Virus record (IMG/VR): IMGVR_UViG_3300025849_000031
Span: 1 to 64,000 of that record
DNA length: 64,000 nucleotides
Source of the DNA: a virus
Direction: 5' to 3' (one strand)
Numbering within the stretch: position 1 is the first letter of the stretch; each line of letters opens with the position of its first letter. Position numbers and translations under genes: made by a program. The notes beneath the pieces were generated by a model. The model searched no databases. It was not told the DNA's origin and was given only the letters and a program-made list of their open reading frames with translations. Below are positions 30,510 to 36,511 of the stretch, piece after piece.

Positions 30510-30538
30510 TGTACATTTATCTCAAACTGTGTTATAAT
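30510..30538 (+). promoter_or_regulatory. Early-type promoter of the DNA-modification operon
   Basis: TGTACA (30510-30515), 17-bp spacer, TG-extended TATAAT (30533-30538). It stands at the head of a run of seven overlapping or nearly abutting genes (30568-36208). CGAGGAA precedes the first ATG. Confidence 0.9.
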
Positions 30539-30567
30539 ATATCCATTATAACGAGGAATACTAACTA

Positions 30568-31050
30568 ATGAAAGAATCTTTAAAAGTGTTACAAGAATGT
30601 GCTGATCTTCAGATTAAAAAAGCTAATGATTATCAGAATCCTAATTCAAATATTAAACAGGCAGACTACTATCCGCGCGGCGTATCATCATTACTTGATA
30701 TTGTTCATGCTAAAACATTACGTATGATGTCAGTAGTTGAAGCAATGGAGAATGATCCAGACTATAGTCCTAACTTTGAATCACTCGAAGATTCAGCAAA
30801 AGATCTAATCAATTATGGTTCATTCATTGCTGCTTATATTCGTGGTGGTATCGATGGTCAAGATACTGATCGTGATTTCTTAAATCGTCGCAATATTGAA
30901 CCTGTAGATACTAAGCGTGACGGGCTCGGTTTAGCGATCAACACCGAAGCCGATGGTTCGGCAGTTCGTGTAAGTGGCGTTCCATACAGTGTTTCGAAAC
31001 ACGACGTAAAATTTAAGTGTATGCCCAGTCATGAATATGGTGATTGGTAA
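30568..31050 (+). CDS. DUF1599 / nucleotide-modification-associated domain 1 protein
   Basis: A 160-residue protein: LQIKKANDYQNPNSNIKQADYYPRGVSSLLDIVHAKTLRMMSVVEAM, then NFESLEDSAKDLINYGSFIAAYI. The kAnDY...K.LRi.s...FEsleDs..DLINY pattern matches DUF1599 (Nmad1), a helical domain repeatedly found beside phage thymidylate-synthase homologues. It lies one base before gp42, fitting a role with modified pyrimidine nucleotides, perhaps as a nucleotide-binding or pyrophosphatase-like partner (inference). Confidence 0.82.
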   Translation: MKESLKVLQECADLQIKKANDYQNPNSNIKQADYYPRGVSSLLDIVHAKTLRMMSVVEAMENDPDYSPNFESLEDSAKDLINYGSFIAAYIRGGIDGQDTDRDFLNRRNIEPVDTKRDGLGLAINTEADGSAVRVSGVPYSVSKHDVKFKCMPSHEYGDW

Positions 31051-31051
31051 A

Positions 31052-31726
31052 ATGGAATATCATAATGTTGAAGACATTCGTCAATACTTTGTTGATGAAC
31101 TAGAAGCAGAAAAATTTACGACCGATCGTACTGGTGCTAAAACAATTGAGTTACTTGGTGCATCATTCATTGCTAATGAAAATGCAATCTTTGGTAGCCC
31201 AAATGAAGACTACATTCAAAAAGAACTTGAATGGTACGATAGTGAATCGACTAATATCTATGATATATCGAATGAGCCTCCTAAAGCATGGAAAATGACA
31301 GCCAATGATCATGGTGAAATTAATTCGAACTATGGCAATCTAATATATAATGCTAAACACTACAATCAATATTATAATGTGCTGAGTGAATTACGAAATA
31401 ATCCGGACTCACGTCGTGCATCGATGGTGTATCAGCGTCCTTCAATATGGGTCGACTATAATGATAATGGTAAGAATGATTTTATTTGCACCAATGCTGT
31501 AACGTATTATATTCGTGATAACCAACTACATTGTGTAGTTCAAATGAGATCTAATGATGTGGTCTTTGGTTATAAGAATGATTTCGCATGGCAAGAGCAT
31601 GTGCTGTATCAATTATGTGGAGATCTAAACGATCGAAATTTTGATGATCACATCGAAGTCGGTAATATCTACTGGCAAGTCCAAAACTTACACGTATATG
31701 AGAGGCACTTTGATCTTGTCAAATAA
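31052..31726 (+). CDS. 42: Deoxycytidylate (dCMP) hydroxymethylase gp42
   Basis: It converts dCMP plus methylene-tetrahydrofolate to 5-hydroxymethyl-dCMP. It has 224 residues and collinear matches to T4 gp42: TGAKTIELLGASF, YIQKELEWY, GEINSNYG, NPDSRR and MRSNDVVFGYKND. Cys146 (FICTN) is the nucleophile. Asp177 replaces the Asn found in dUMP-specific thymidylate synthases, the switch known to give dCMP specificity. The C-terminus stops at HVYERHFDLVK, about 20 residues before T4 gp42 ends, just as the next gene begins. ATG 31052, after a GGTGAT site, is chosen; an in-frame ATG at 31031 is possible. Confidence 0.95.
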   Translation: MEYHNVEDIRQYFVDELEAEKFTTDRTGAKTIELLGASFIANENAIFGSPNEDYIQKELEWYDSESTNIYDISNEPPKAWKMTANDHGEINSNYGNLIYNAKHYNQYYNVLSELRNNPDSRRASMVYQRPSIWVDYNDNGKNDFICTNAVTYYIRDNQLHCVVQMRSNDVVFGYKNDFAWQEHVLYQLCGDLNDRNFDDHIEVGNIYWQVQNLHVYERHFDLVK

Positions 31727-32162
31727 ATGGGATAAACGTTATATGGAACTGGCCAAGACAGTATCAACTTGGTCAAAGGATCCATCAAAGAAAGTTGGTG
31801 CGGTTGCTATTGGATCTAAAGGTCAAGTTTTGGCTCAAGGATTCAATGGCTTTCCGCGTGGTATCGACGATAGTGAAAACCGCTTAGTTGATAAAGACAC
31901 TAAATATAAGTATGTCGTGCACGCTGAAATGAATCTTATATATAATGCGACATTTAATGGAACGTCATTAAATGGTTCGACAGTTTATGTGTATGGACTA
32001 CCCGTCTGCTCTGAATGTGCAAAAGGTCTTATTCAGGTCGGTGTAAAACAAATCGTAATGAGTGAACACTCGATGGAAGATGCACCTGAAAAGTGGATAG
32101 AATCGTGTGAGCTTTCGGTAGCCATGCTTAACGAAGCAGGAATACATTGGAAAACAGTATGA
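31716..32162 (+). CDS. cd: dCMP deaminase
   Basis: It deaminates dCMP to dUMP, feeding thymidylate synthesis and competing with gp42 for dCMP. About 148 residues. The zinc motifs are VVHAEMN (HAE) and PVCSECAKGLIQVGVKQIV (PCxxC type). The start is uncertain: TTG 31716 after GAGAGG gives MSNKWDKRYMELAKTVSTWSKDPSKKVGAV, the usual family N-terminus; an in-frame ATG at 31698 lies further inside gp42. The stop overlaps the next gene by ATGA. Confidence 0.93.
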   Translation: MSNKWDKRYMELAKTVSTWSKDPSKKVGAVAIGSKGQVLAQGFNGFPRGIDDSENRLVDKDTKYKYVVHAEMNLIYNATFNGTSLNGSTVYVYGLPVCSECAKGLIQVGVKQIVMSEHSMEDAPEKWIESCELSVAMLNEAGIHWKTV

Positions 32163-33271
32163 AGAAAATATTAATTACAGGTATGAATAAGAATCAGACT
32201 ACAAAGGATTTTTATTTAAGACAACAACTTAAGGTAGTACCATCTCATTATTCTCTTATAAGATGCTTAGAGGATATGGGTTATGAAGTAGAACAACGAT
32301 TGGTAAAGATTGGAGAAGATCTATCTGAATACCATCGGGTTATATGTTTCCTTGCATCTCCACGCCAAGCCCTCCAGTTAGCATTCTATAACGGTCTGTG
32401 GGCCATTCATGCTACACCAAAGGAAAACCTTGTATTGGCATTTGATGATTGGCAAACAGAAGATATCTTTAAAGGCATTCTATCTTGTAAAGATAAAGAT
32501 TCGTTGCTGAAAGAGTTTACCATTAATCAAAACAAGATGTGTGATCCAGACATGTCGTTTGAATTACTTGAACCGCATACTGAAACATTACTTGAAGCTG
32601 TAAACTATATTGGTGAAAAGAAAGCTCCAATGTTGCTATCAGTATTCATGGGTGGTGATCTAAGCAAGCTTGTTGATTATCCTGAAGAACTCCTTGTTGG
32701 TTATAATCCTAATCCGTATCATCGTAACCGAGTGCCAGGCAATCGTGGTGATATTCATATCGATGAGATGGAATATATGGAACAGATTATGATGCCTTCA
32801 GTCGAAGAAGATACAGTTGCTCCAGCTGATAAGGTTAAATGCTTTAACTTTGCATCATTAGTGCAAGGTAAAACCAAGCGTTGGTTAAAGCAACAGAATG
32901 CTGATTCATGGGAAATCGAGTTCTTTGGTTCACGTAAAGAAAAGCAACGTCGTCTTGGTGAAGGTGATATGTGTCAAGTATATGCCGAACAATGGGGTTG
33001 TCTAATGCCAGGATATAATCATGCTGGATCTGGTTGGTGGAGAGCACGCCCATTACAGCTAGCAGATGCTGGTTCTATTCTTATTGGTGAATACGAAGAG
33101 ATGATGTTACTATATAATAATGAACAGCTTGCATCATTAAAGGCAAGTGATATCGTTAATCTTTCAACAGAAGAATTATCAAGTCTAGCTGATAGACAAA
33201 AAGCAGCTCTACTTCAAGAGCATCCATTAGATGAAACACTACAACAAAAGGAACTGAGTGTTATACTATGA
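32159..33271 (+). CDS. Putative GT-B glycosyltransferase, candidate hmC-DNA sugar transferase
   Basis: A 370-residue protein. The N-terminal Rossmann-like start is KKILITGMNKNQTTKDFYLRQQ, then HYSLIRCLEDMGYEVEQR. The C-terminal half has GYNPNPYHRNR and EQWGCLMPGYNHAGSGWWRARPLQLADAGSIL, laid out like the donor-binding site of GT-B enzymes. It is not close to T4 alpha- or beta-glucosyltransferase. Its place between dCMP deaminase and a UDP-galactopyranose mutase makes transfer of a furanosyl sugar to hydroxymethylcytosine the best guess. The fold call is moderate and the substrate call is inference. Confidence 0.65.
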   Translation: MKKILITGMNKNQTTKDFYLRQQLKVVPSHYSLIRCLEDMGYEVEQRLVKIGEDLSEYHRVICFLASPRQALQLAFYNGLWAIHATPKENLVLAFDDWQTEDIFKGILSCKDKDSLLKEFTINQNKMCDPDMSFELLEPHTETLLEAVNYIGEKKAPMLLSVFMGGDLSKLVDYPEELLVGYNPNPYHRNRVPGNRGDIHIDEMEYMEQIMMPSVEEDTVAPADKVKCFNFASLVQGKTKRWLKQQNADSWEIEFFGSRKEKQRRLGEGDMCQVYAEQWGCLMPGYNHAGSGWWRARPLQLADAGSILIGEYEEMMLLYNNEQLASLKASDIVNLSTEELSSLADRQKAALLQEHPLDETLQQKELSVIL

Positions 33272-34281
33272 AGTCAATATTAATCGTAGGCGCTGGATTC
33301 TCTGGCGCCGTAATTGCAAGAGAGCTCGCAGAAGCTGGACATAATTGTACTATAATCGATAAGCGCCATCATATTGGTGGCAATGCTTACGATTATGAGT
33401 GTAGTGGAATCCGTATTCATAAATATGGTCCTCATCTATTTCATACAAACAATAAAGAAGTAGTTGATTGGCTATCTCAATTTACTGAATGGGTTGATTA
33501 TCAGCATAAAGTTAAAGCTCAACTCTCTGATGGTCGCTATGTAACATTACCAGTTAATAAGGAAACAAAGGAGATTGTGGGTGAAGATAATATCCTCGAT
33601 ACATTCTTTAGACCATATACTCTCAAGATGTGGGGTAAGACTCTAGATGAACTTGATCCATCTATTATTAATCGCATTCCAACACGTGATGATGACAACG
33701 AGTTATACTTTCCAAACGATAAATATCAGATGATGCCTAAAGATGGTTATACGAAGATCTTTGAAAATATCTTTAAGCATAAGAATATTAAGGTCTTCAC
33801 TGGCACTCGTTTTACGAAGTCAATGGAAAAGAAGTATGATCATGTGTTTAACTCAATGCCAATCGATCAATACTTTAATAACAAGCATGGCGAACTTCCG
33901 TATCGCTCTATCAAGTTTCATAAGGTTCTTTTACCGATGGCTAAGGTTCTACCAACTGCTACTGTTAACTTTACACATGACGATCCATATACTCGAGTAA
34001 CTGAATGGAAGAATATTCCTAATCATGGTGAATCAGCTACTCAAACAATATTAACATACGAAGAGCCATGTGATTATAAAGATAATAATAAAGAAAGATA
34101 TTATCCAGTCAAAGATGTAGATGGTGTAAACAGGGAAACGTATAAAAAATATAAAGAAATGGTTGATACTGATCGTATGACTTTCATTGGTCGATGCGGA
34201 ATGTATGTCTACGTGGATATGCATCAGGCAATCTCATCAGCCCTAGCAACTTCAAAGAGGTATTTAAAAGAATGCGTATAG
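33268..34281 (+). CDS. glf: UDP-galactopyranose mutase (Glf)
   Basis: A flavoenzyme that interconverts UDP-galactopyranose and UDP-galactofuranose; related enzymes use UDP-arabinopyranose. It has 337 residues. The N-terminal FAD motif is VGAGFSGAVIARELAEAG with IIDKRHHIGGNAYD. The active-site region has GIRIHKYGPHLFHTN and FRPYTLKMWG, and the C-terminal FAD-binding segment is FIGRCGMYVYVDMHQAI. It overlaps its neighbours on both sides. No phage surface-polysaccharide genes are nearby, so sugar supply for DNA modification is the likely purpose. Confidence 0.95.
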   Translation: MKSILIVGAGFSGAVIARELAEAGHNCTIIDKRHHIGGNAYDYECSGIRIHKYGPHLFHTNNKEVVDWLSQFTEWVDYQHKVKAQLSDGRYVTLPVNKETKEIVGEDNILDTFFRPYTLKMWGKTLDELDPSIINRIPTRDDDNELYFPNDKYQMMPKDGYTKIFENIFKHKNIKVFTGTRFTKSMEKKYDHVFNSMPIDQYFNNKHGELPYRSIKFHKVLLPMAKVLPTATVNFTHDDPYTRVTEWKNIPNHGESATQTILTYEEPCDYKDNNKERYYPVKDVDGVNRETYKKYKEMVDTDRMTFIGRCGMYVYVDMHQAISSALATSKRYLKECV

Positions 34282-35024
34282 CAATTACTGGATCAAGTGG
34301 TTTTATCGGTGGTCATGTAAAGAATAAGCTTATAGAACTAGGCCATACTGTCGATGAATGGGATTTTAAGATCGACAGGCCTGTACAGGATTTCGTAGAT
34401 TTTCAATCACCTAATGTTGATTATGTTATTCATCTTGCTGCTTATGCAGATGTAAGGGAAAGCATTAATGAACCACAAAAATACTGGGACAATAATGTAA
34501 CGCTTACTACCGAGATTCAAGAGTGGTGTAACTTCTACGATATACCTTTAATATATGCTTCATCTTCTTGTATACATGATTGGCATTTATCTCCATACGG
34601 AATGAGTAAGAAGATCAATGAAGAAACTGCATTTGAAAATCAGATTGGATTACGATTTACTACAGTTTATGGTGATGGTGCTCGCGATGAAATGCTAATT
34701 GGCAGATTGATTGAAGGTCGAGTAAGTTATTTAACGACTCATATTCGTGATTTTGTGCATGTTGATGATGTAGTAGATGTAATGCTACTATTGATTGAAA
34801 AAGAAATGGACGGTGTAACTCATCTTAAACCTGCTTATGATATCGGTACAGGCAAAGGTGTAGTTGTTGCAGATCTAGGACCACTAGCCGGATACGATAT
34901 AGATATTAAACCAGGCGACAAATGCGAAGCTTTCGATAACACGGCTGATATATCAGATATTACAGAGCTCGGTTGGTCGCCAAAATATGATATTGAAGAA
35001 TACATTAAGGATAAGACCAAATGA
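34272..35024 (+). CDS. NAD-dependent nucleotide-sugar epimerase/dehydratase
   Basis: An extended SDR enzyme, 250 residues from ATG 34272. Cofactor motif GSSGFIGGHV is at 8-17, IHLAAYADVRES is the second motif, and the catalytic YGMSKK (YxxxK) is preceded by YASSSCIHDW with the active-site Ser. These features fit UDP-sugar 4-epimerases such as UDP-glucose/galactose or UDP-xylose/arabinose. It is short for the family (about 310-340). Positioned after glf, it could make the pyranose substrate for the mutase from a host UDP-sugar. Confidence 0.85.
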   Translation: MRIAITGSSGFIGGHVKNKLIELGHTVDEWDFKIDRPVQDFVDFQSPNVDYVIHLAAYADVRESINEPQKYWDNNVTLTTEIQEWCNFYDIPLIYASSSCIHDWHLSPYGMSKKINEETAFENQIGLRFTTVYGDGARDEMLIGRLIEGRVSYLTTHIRDFVHVDDVVDVMLLLIEKEMDGVTHLKPAYDIGTGKGVVVADLGPLAGYDIDIKPGDKCEAFDNTADISDITELGWSPKYDIEEYIKDKTK

Positions 35025-36208
35025 AATACGCAAGTATAGTACCACTGATCGGTGGAGAAACAATTGCAATGGAGAATGTGTTTGGGAAACGTCCTGAATA
35101 TATTCTATCATATAGCGCATTTGCTAATAATGATTCTCAGATTTTAAATCATTATAATAATGAAGTGCCATATCATGTGATTGACGAAGGTAATGGTAAA
35201 ACAGACTATGTCGATGTAGTCAATACTGTATGCCCATGCGCTGGGTTATCATCTCTATCTCCACAAGCCAATTCAAATAGCGCTGCAAATGATTGGATGT
35301 CCGAATCAGCTGAATACGTACTTGCTAATATTAAACCTAAAGTATTTTGGGGTGAGAATGCTCCTCGACTAGCATCAAAGATGGGCGAACCAGTCGTTAG
35401 AAAATTACGTAAGATTGCTGAGCATCATGGGTACACGTTTTCTATATATAAGACTAAGAGCATATTACATGGTTTATCGCAAGTTCGAGACAGAACTTTC
35501 TACTTTTTCTGGAAAGGAACCCAAGTGCCACTCCTTGGTTACGTCTCGAATCCGCACACTCGTATCGAAGATCATATTCGTTCTATCCAAAGACGCAAAG
35601 ATGATCCAATGAATATCTTGACTAATGAGAAGATCCCATCAGAGAATCCTTACTATCGATATGTCTTAGAAGTAATCGAAGGTGGTATTACACATTCTCA
35701 GTTCCAAGATAAGATCGAAAAGACTACAAATCCAATGGATGAAATAGAAAAGCATACGAATTATAAAGTCGTTGCTCAATGGATGCGTGCAAATGGATAT
35801 GATAATGAAGCTGCTAAGTGTGATCGTAAGTATCACAAACTTAAAGCAGGTGGTAATATTATGCGTAAGACAACCGAAATACCCAAGGATTATATTGGTG
35901 CTTTCGTTGGTCACTTCCCAACAAATCTATGTCACCCTGACGAAGATCGATATCTAACTGTAAGAGAAGCAATGTCTATTATGAAGCTTCCAGATGATTT
36001 CAATCTAATAAACCCTAAGGCTAATCTAAATCATATATGCCAGAACGTTCCTGTTACAACAGCAGAACATCCAGCTCGTATGATTAAGAAGTGGCTTGAA
36101 GGTAATACTGTTGATTCAATTGAGACTAAGTTCTTAGTTGAAGACAACAAGAAACGCACCTATGATTATGAAAATAACGGTGTACAATTAGATAGTTTTA
36201 TGTTATAA
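35021..36208 (+). CDS. C5-cytosine methyltransferase homologue, divergent
   Basis: A 395-residue protein with the C5-MTase order of motifs: NTVCPCAGLSS (motif IV, catalytic Cys73; CPCA instead of PPCQ), GENAPRL (motif VI, Glu112), SQVRDRTFYFF (motif VIII QxRxR), RYLTVREAMSIMKLPDDF (motif IX) and HICQNVPVTTAEHPA (motif X). Motif I is reduced (PLIGGETIAMENVF). An ordinary cytosine methyltransferase is puzzling in a phage making hydroxymethyl-dCMP, so it may act on host or early DNA, or do another chemistry at C5. Confidence 0.85.
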   Translation: MKYASIVPLIGGETIAMENVFGKRPEYILSYSAFANNDSQILNHYNNEVPYHVIDEGNGKTDYVDVVNTVCPCAGLSSLSPQANSNSAANDWMSESAEYVLANIKPKVFWGENAPRLASKMGEPVVRKLRKIAEHHGYTFSIYKTKSILHGLSQVRDRTFYFFWKGTQVPLLGYVSNPHTRIEDHIRSIQRRKDDPMNILTNEKIPSENPYYRYVLEVIEGGITHSQFQDKIEKTTNPMDEIEKHTNYKVVAQWMRANGYDNEAAKCDRKYHKLKAGGNIMRKTTEIPKDYIGAFVGHFPTNLCHPDEDRYLTVREAMSIMKLPDDFNLINPKANLNHICQNVPVTTAEHPARMIKKWLEGNTVDSIETKFLVEDNKKRTYDYENNGVQLDSFML

Positions 36209-36209
36209 T
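36181..36209 (+). promoter_or_regulatory. Early-type promoter overlapping the methyltransferase 3' end
   Basis: TGTACA (36181-36186), 17-bp spacer, TG-extended TATAAT (36204-36209). Almost all of it lies inside the last codons of the methyltransferase gene. It would drive bS21 and UvsX. A nine-codon leader ORF (36247-36276) overlaps the bS21 start. Confidence 0.88.
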
Positions 36210-36268: not shown

Positions 36269-36511
36269 ATGCCTAGTGTATGTTTACATCCGAAAAACTC
36301 GAAGAACAAGAAGCCTATGCCATTTGATGTGGCAATGCGTAAGTTCAGCAAGCTAGTCGATGAAGCAGGTATCTTGCAGAAAGCAAGAGAGAAAGAGTAC
36401 TATGAAAAACCAACTGCTAAACGTAAGCGTAAGAAGAAAGAAGCGTTAAAGCGTCAAAATCGATTGAATGCTGAGAATCCAATTAATCAACGTAATAATA
36501 GGAAGTACTAA
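36269..36511 (+). CDS. rpsU: Ribosomal protein bS21 homologue
   Basis: An 80-residue protein. PFDVAMRKFSKLVDEAGILQKAREKEYYEKPTAKRKRKKKEALKRQ follows the bacterial S21 pattern (PFDVALRRF...AG.L.E.R.REFYEKPT.KRKRK). S21 sits near the anti-Shine-Dalgarno end of 16S rRNA and is easily exchanged, so a phage copy could bias initiation towards phage mRNAs. It has a nine-residue N-terminal extension (MPSVCLHPK) and a basic tail. AAAGGAAAA precedes ATG 36269. It is the first gene of the uvsX transcript. Confidence 0.93.
   Translation: MPSVCLHPKNSKNKKPMPFDVAMRKFSKLVDEAGILQKAREKEYYEKPTAKRKRKKKEALKRQNRLNAENPINQRNNRKY

Follow-up and report, generated by a model that had tools for sequence, protein, structure and literature searches.

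Base J of eukaryotes and the TET/JBP-dependent hypermodified cytosines of phages are made in two steps, in which a TET/JBP oxygenase makes a hydroxymethyl group and this group is then glycosylated. Phage T4 makes glucosyl-5-hydroxymethylcytosine by means of gp42 and the beta- and alpha-glucosyltransferases (BGT and AGT), and the modification of RB69 and Mosigvirus has been re-assigned to arabinosyl-5-hydroxycytosine, not arabinosyl-5-hydroxymethylcytosine (PMC13390438). How 5-hydroxymethylcytosine (hmC) is protected or decorated in gene-42 phages that have no glucosyltransferases, including the Aeromonas phages 44RR, 31 and 25, was left open by Petrov et al. 2010 (PMC2993671). Here we describe an operon of seven genes in a 64,000-nucleotide stretch of viral DNA (the window), which is part of the 67,696-base IMG/VR record IMGVR_UViG_3300025849_000031 (G000 in our genome comparisons). 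We propose, with a rough probability of 0.75, that the operon encodes furanosylation of hmC in phage DNA and that the sugar is probably galactofuranose, based on sequence comparison and a modelled structure.

In the proposed mechanism, gp42 would convert dCMP to 5-hydroxymethyl-dCMP (hm-dCMP) while dCMP deaminase and a DUF1599 protein would adjust the pool, and hm-dCMP would be phosphorylated and then incorporated during replication. An epimerase and the UDP-galactopyranose mutase Glf would convert a host UDP-hexose to UDP-galactofuranose (UDP-Galf), and the simplest route known for these families leads from UDP-glucose (UDP-Glc) via UDP-galactopyranose (UDP-Galp) to UDP-Galf. A GT-B glycosyltransferase (GT) of the family phrog_14998 would then take over the part that BGT plays in T4, with another sugar: it would attach the furanosyl residue to hmC in the DNA at its hydroxymethyl group, and the product may protect the DNA from restriction. 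The computational support consists of the gene identities, the gp42 residues, a GT-B fold with BGT and AGT as its closest matches, a gene position shared with beta-gt, and the association of the GT with Glf and with hydroxymethyl-making enzymes. HmC synthesis, a furanose supply and a DNA GT formed the core of the original prediction made for this operon, and this core survived every computational test, while three points of the prediction came out weaker.

Predicted hydroxymethylcytosine synthesis

The window gp42 is 51% identical to the T4 dCMP hydroxymethylase (phmmer E 1.5e-73 to 1B49), compared with 23-26% for the RB69 enzyme, and belongs to PF00303 and phrog_160 (E 3e-49). The roles of the T4 residues in the active site and the folate pocket have been described (PMC6400193). 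In T4 numbering, the window enzyme keeps N53, Y56, E60, W82, S94, Y96, R123, R124, D145, C148, D171, F174, D179, Y218 and R220, while K28, R59, I81, V85 and S144 vary; Cys148, Asp179, Glu60 and the folate pocket of the T4-type hydroxymethylases are thus all present. The nucleophile Cys146 and the Asp177 of the original prediction, which are counted from Met 31052 (C153 and D184 when counted from 31031), were confirmed and correspond to T4 C148 and D179. In the RB69 enzyme, W82 is replaced by A, D145 by E, D171 by N, F174 by V and Y218 by F, and the thymidylate synthase (TS)-type enzyme of a Providencia phage departs from T4 at the same positions. E60 also differs in the RB69/Providencia alignment, in a column that may be misaligned. 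Since the T4 catalytic and folate residues are kept and the RB69-type substitutions are absent, the window gp42 should make hm-dCMP.

The alternative that gp42 makes 5-hydroxy-dCMP like the RB69 enzyme, giving furanosyl-5-hydroxycytosine, is suggested by the homologous TS-superfamily enzymes of Mosigvirus, which make 5-hydroxy-dCMP (PMC13390438), and by the RB69-type enzyme encoded in the Providencia phrog_14998 locus. However, the T4 residues kept at the positions where RB69 differs, together with the identities given above, disagree with an RB69-like synthase, which we reject, and we give this product hardly any probability.

The dCMP deaminase belongs to PF00383 (E 9e-19) and phrog_174 (E 3e-39). 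The window copy of the DUF1599 protein has no Pfam match, and six of eight aligned orthologues match PF07659, 'Nucleotide modification associated domain 1' (best E 2e-6). The gene lies upstream of gp42 in most relatives, and its product may act in the dNTP pool. One relative (L021, 5687-6142) encodes an APS-kinase-like P-loop kinase directly 3' of gp42, which matches weakly in the gp1 and gp56 searches and is a possible substitute for the hm-dCMP kinase.

The predicted glycosyltransferase and its proposed sugar donor

The GT comprises 370 amino acids and matches phrog_14998 (E 1.6e-28), a family of 'unknown function'. No Pfam match was obtained, a PDB sequence search with the GT profile found nothing, and the protein falls outside the T4 beta- and alpha-glucosyltransferase families (phrog_7922 and phrog_2888). 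We built an AlphaFold model from a 25-sequence alignment (pLDDT 85, pTM 0.85) and compared it with 350,542 PDB chains using Foldseek. T4 BGT occupied ranks 1, 2 and 5 (top match 1qkj, E 2.8e-6, probability 1.0, TM-score 0.51-0.53) and T4 AGT (1ya6) rank 3. The TM-scores of about 0.4-0.53 suggest that the GT shares the BGT/AGT fold without close kinship. The fold on which the original prediction depended was therefore recovered in the model, which places the protein by fold among the GT-B DNA glycosyltransferases, nearest in the PDB to the phage DNA glucosyltransferases. D97 and W98 are invariant across the 25 homologues, and by eye the motif AFDD(97) corresponds to the strand and acid LFTD(100) of BGT, with D97 placed like D100; on this modelled correspondence, D97 is proposed as the catalytic base. 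The gene lies between gp42 and uvsX, which is the position of beta-gt in T4.

No phrog_14998 member was found in 14 control genomes. A scan of 84,980 species genomes, sensitive to fairly close relatives only, returned one member, on a 20-kb phage-like contig that was binned as Bacteroidetes and also encodes gp42, dCMP deaminase and Glf; a collection scan with a diverse GT alignment, which was too divergent, returned nothing. It could be argued that the sugar genes and the GT remodel a host surface glycan (lipopolysaccharide or capsule) for superinfection exclusion and lie beside gp42 by chance, since cell-surface glycans are the usual destination of Glf and epimerase products, and the phage Glf of Atu_ph04 has been so interpreted (PMC6630229). 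However, this explains the presence of Glf and no other part of the pattern. The best structural neighbours of the GT are DNA glucosyltransferases, its position is that of beta-gt, the genes go together with hydroxymethyl-making enzymes in more than one lineage, the GT is present in phages with hmC synthesis and no known DNA GT, and the genome scan, sensitive to fairly close relatives, found it solely in a phage-like contig. A role in surface glycans is therefore quite improbable, and we return to DNA as the presumed acceptor.

Glf matches PF03275 (E 1e-53) and the UDP-galactopyranose mutase 3hdq (E 3e-76), and its alignment with 3hdq keeps the FAD Rossmann motif and the visible Arg, Tyr and Trp positions of this enzyme family. 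The epimerase matches PF01370 (E 1e-25) and phrog_540 (E 6e-46), contains YxxxK and finds its best PDB match in the UDP-glucose 4-epimerase 4zrm (E 1.5e-14); with 250 amino acids, it is shorter than typical enzymes of that kind. The operon showed no pentose-specific enzyme. We infer a furanose donor, as the original prediction did, from Glf and the epimerase and from these two genes only. That prediction named galactofuranose and arabinofuranose side by side. Because UDP-glucose 4-epimerase is the closest solved relative of the epimerase and the operon has no pentose-specific enzyme, arabinofuranose fits less well, and the sugar is probably galactofuranose. In some relatives, the operon contains a cytidylyltransferase-like gene (L019, 6732-7178, also in L022 and L026; L021, 4580-4999; L027, 5419-5835), which matches PF01467 in the L021 copy, is similar by eye in the others and in several lies directly upstream of the epimerase; a different sugar may be used in those relatives.

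Distribution across phage lineages

We compared the neighbourhoods of about 60 GT loci, with clades supported by the GT tree. In the window clade gp42 is present in 16 of 16 covered loci and TET in none, and in the C48C1 clade a TET/JBP oxygenase is present in 18 of 18 and gp42 in none; clustering at 95% identity leaves 7 and 10 clusters, respectively, and since each clade is one lineage, its loci cannot be counted as independent events. Wherever the flank is covered in these two clades, the GT gene abuts or overlaps Glf, and the GT also adjoins Glf in Aeromonas phage 25, Erwinia FBB1, DSL-LC01 and one contig of a metagenome-assembled genome. In the window clade the epimerase lies upstream or downstream of the GT-Glf pair and the C5-methyltransferase (C5-MTase) is also present. 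The C48C1 clade has the same epimerase-GT-Glf set, with the epimerase in nearly all loci and none seen near the GT in C48C1 itself. The TET/JBP oxygenase lies upstream of GT and Glf, often with the epimerase between, in L001 (OQ984149.1, 7580-8998) and L032-L050. PF12851 (Tet_JBP) was not found in G000, in its relative G001 or in the genome G002, which places the window lineage outside the TET/JBP systems.

The third lineage, the Aeromonas phage 25 group with Erwinia FBB1, has Glf and GT together and gp42 elsewhere in the genome, and the complete genomes of Aeromonas phage 25 and Erwinia FBB1 contain neither alpha-gt nor beta-gt. The specific GT-Glf pair in phage 25 and its relatives is now a candidate answer to the question of Petrov et al. 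The prediction thus concerns phages already in culture; our literature search turned up no nucleoside data for cultured Aeromonas phages.

In the fourth lineage, a Providencia phage, the GT lies between a SIS-domain isomerase and an NTP-transferase, with no Glf. This RB69-type cluster of PSTRCR_127 (L004, MW358927.1, 8369-14788) also includes a U32 peptidase-like protein and a TS of the 5-hydroxy-dCMP-synthase type, and its GT is a candidate DNA arabinosyltransferase. U32-family proteins include RNA hydroxylases, so the U32-like gene may matter for 5-hydroxycytosine. The fifth lineage comprises actinophages with one or two phrog_14998 GTs; many of them also encode dCMP deaminase, a C5-MTase and a protein of the thymidylate synthase family. 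L003, L053-L057 and L062 have a pair of phrog_14998-type GTs that flank Glf, and this pairing suggests a disaccharide or two acceptors.

The GT is thus tied to enzymes that make a pyrimidine hydroxyl, by two or three distinct routes, and in most cases also to Glf. Since these ties are combined with a BGT-like fold, we suggest that furanosyl transfer to hmC in DNA by a portable gene module is the best explanation. A related possibility is that the GT modifies hmC with a pyranose or another furanose (from UDP-Glc, UDP-Galp, UDP-L-arabinofuranose or another donor), Glf and the epimerase serving another purpose or another sugar. Some actinophage loci without Glf, the Providencia member within its RB69-like arabinose cluster, also without Glf, and the cytidylyltransferase-like gene beside the epimerase in relatives L019-L026 speak for it. 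However, GT and Glf stay adjacent or overlapping in all flank-covered loci of the window and C48C1 clades and in the Aeromonas/Erwinia lineage, and the window operon has no further donor-making enzyme, so we consider another sugar unlikely.

Several observations weigh against furanosylation of hmC as proposed here. First, the search for the dCTPase gp56 (phrog_173) was negative in both the 67.7-kb record and the 219.7-kb relative G001, and for the hm-dCMP kinase gp1 (phrog_139) the record gave no match and G001 only a weak 31-residue P-loop match beside gp42. Aeromonas phage 25 has gp56 and a strong gp1 match. The pathway had been called complete, which is overstated; since gp56 and gp1 were not found, hmC may be partial in the window lineage or other enzymes may stand in for them. 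Second, hhalign detected no sequence similarity between the window GT and BGT, AGT or RB69 ORF003c, so that a sequence-level relationship to any of these was rejected, and the BGT glutamate E272 seems by eye to be replaced. Third, the C5-MTase homologue is confirmed by PF00145 (E 7e-18) and by the catalytic motifs PC(AGLS), ENAP, Q-x-R-(D/N)-R and QNVP conserved throughout the window clade (a PDB sequence search with it found nothing), but it has no obvious job if all cytosines are hmC, and the pathway does not explain it; it could mark the remaining cytosines. Fourth, the complete genome of C48C1 contains TET and no detectable PF00145 C5-MTase, and therefore its acceptor may be 5-hydroxymethyluracil (hmU) rather than hmC, derived from thymine as in base J and not by oxidation of 5-methylcytosine. 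Finally, Glf is present in only some of the actinophage loci, so that use of a furanose need not hold for the whole family.

A broader reading, which we put forward tentatively as possible and rather doubtful, is that epimerase-GT-Glf is a portable furanosylation module for 5-hydroxymethylpyrimidines, giving galactofuranosyl-hmC in gp42 phages (the window lineage, the Aeromonas phage 25 group and Erwinia FBB1) and furanosyl-hmU in the C48C1 clade. If this is true, the C48C1 clade would hold a phage counterpart of base J that carries a furanose. Furanosylation of hmC by the window operon would itself extend the known DNA sugars by a furanose, show that a module for attaching the sugar can be combined with different routes to the hydroxymethyl group, and suggest a possible new hmC-labelling enzyme, and phrog_14998 gains a predicted role. 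A literature search found no paper linking Glf or galactofuranose to phage DNA modification; it did not extend to the phage TET paper or to a preprint about the glycosylation of 5-hydroxycytosine (PMC13326640), and an earlier mention there is possible.

We also noted further genes in the phages compared. Pootjesviridae carry Glf, which lies near sliding clamp genes in Agrobacterium phage OLIVR5 (L100/L103), where the TS-like enzyme has the RB69-type residue pattern; Atu_ph04 is reported to encode a dCMP hydroxymethyltransferase, a dNMP kinase, Glf and a GT1 (PMC6630229). These phages possibly make furanosyl-5-hydroxycytosine with another GT. A small protein encoded between deaminase and GT (L028, 3765-4124; L027, 7630-8004) may recognise or edit modified DNA; the L028 protein matches DUF1643 and the uracil-DNA-glycosylase superfamily weakly, and the L027 copy is similar by eye. 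A conserved protein with an NPxPIGQRP motif, ParB-like by eye, is encoded near TET cassettes (L034, 9547-10830; L040, 10174-11562; L037, 4643-5971; L044, 10146-11534).

Operon layout and comparison with known systems

The window contains T4 orthologues of gp17-gp23, UvsW, gp55, gp47/46, gp45, gp44, gp62, RegA, gp43, gp4, gp42, Cd, UvsX, gp41, NrdA and NrdB. Its major capsid protein is nearest to those of Pelagibacter phage HTVC008M and Methylophilales phages (56%), followed by Phage C48C1 (54%), and from these neighbours we class the virus as a T4-like 'exo-T-even' phage, probably marine.

The operon (30568-36208) is flanked by two copies of one promoter class. All seven open reading frames were found where the original prediction had placed them, overlapping or abutting as described: the GT starts within the end of the deaminase gene (ATG 32159, stop 32162), Glf within the GT gene (ATG 33268, stop 33271), the epimerase within Glf (ATG 34272, stop 34281) and the MTase within the epimerase gene (ATG 35021, stop 35024). 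Another 15 contigs that cover the region, some of them near-identical, carry the gene set as well, which is therefore not a chance juxtaposition. The single promoter proposed for the operon belongs to a real class, with 14 TGTACA-N17-TATAAT-type sites in the window against 0.17 expected; its description as 'early-type' is an inferred label. In the strict form TGTACA-N16/17-TATAAT, the 14 sites span 12295 to 58666, and the class should be useful for mapping the transcription units of this phage. A ribosomal protein S21 homologue (36269-36511, PF01165 E 8.5e-15) lies between the operon and uvsX.

Table 1. Features of the operon in window coordinates, in gene order between the two promoters.
Feature	Position	Strand	Basis or remark
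Promoter TGTACA-N17-TATAAT, TG ahead of -10	30510..30538	+	Upstream of operon; promoter-class scan
DUF1599 / nucleotide modification associated domain 1 protein	30568..31050	+	PF07659 in orthologues
gp42, dCMP hydroxymethylase	31031..31726 (start 31031 or 31052)	+	Similarity to T4 gp42 / 1B49
dCMP deaminase	31698..32162	+	PF00383, phrog_174; ATG 31698 from open reading frame translation
Predicted DNA glycosyltransferase, GT-B	32159..33271	+	phrog_14998; structure model and Foldseek
Glf, UDP-galactopyranose mutase (proposed UDP-furanose supply)	33268..34281	+	PF03275; UDP-galactopyranose mutase 3hdq
Nucleoside diphosphate-sugar epimerase, proposed UDP-Glc/UDP-Gal 4-epimerase	34272..35024	+	PF01370, phrog_540, 4zrm
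C5-cytosine methyltransferase homologue	35021..36208	+	PF00145 and conserved motifs
Next promoter, same class	36181..36209	+	Operon end, upstream of S21-like gene and uvsX

When we compared the locus with the glucosyl-hmC system of T4, we observed a gp42 orthologue with the T4 active site, a GT-B fold and the order 42-gt-uvsX in common. However, the window GT family is unrelated by sequence to the T4 GTs, the window phage encodes a donor route (epimerase and Glf) whereas T4 relies on host UDP-Glc, the operon contains a C5-MTase, and gp1 and gp56 were not found in the window lineage.

RB69 had been cited in the original prediction as arabinosylating hmC, and with the re-assignment of its modification it is not the closest parallel. 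Mosigvirus and the window phage both combine a TS-superfamily dCMP enzyme, phage sugar-nucleotide genes and a DNA glycosyltransferase (a predicted one in the window phage), and the Providencia phage joins a phrog_14998 GT with RB69-type genes. On the contrary, the window enzyme has the hydroxymethylase signature and falls outside the 5-hydroxy-dCMP-synthase type, Glf and the epimerase take the place of the RB69 KdsD-like isomerase and NTP-transferase/kinase, and the window GT has no detectable homology to ORF003c.

The CmoX/CmoA system for 5-carboxymethylcytosine, in which CmoX is recognised by an SPPC motif (and Arg350), is another case of a phage modification locus that encodes a C5-MTase homologue (PMC12783734). 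The window MTase was rejected as a CmoX carboxymethyltransferase, as it has CPCAGLS instead of SPPC, and the operon contains no CmoA. Finally, the TET/JBP systems meet the window operon in the C48C1 clade, which pairs TET with the same epimerase-GT-Glf cassette, whereas the window lineage has gp42 in place of TET.

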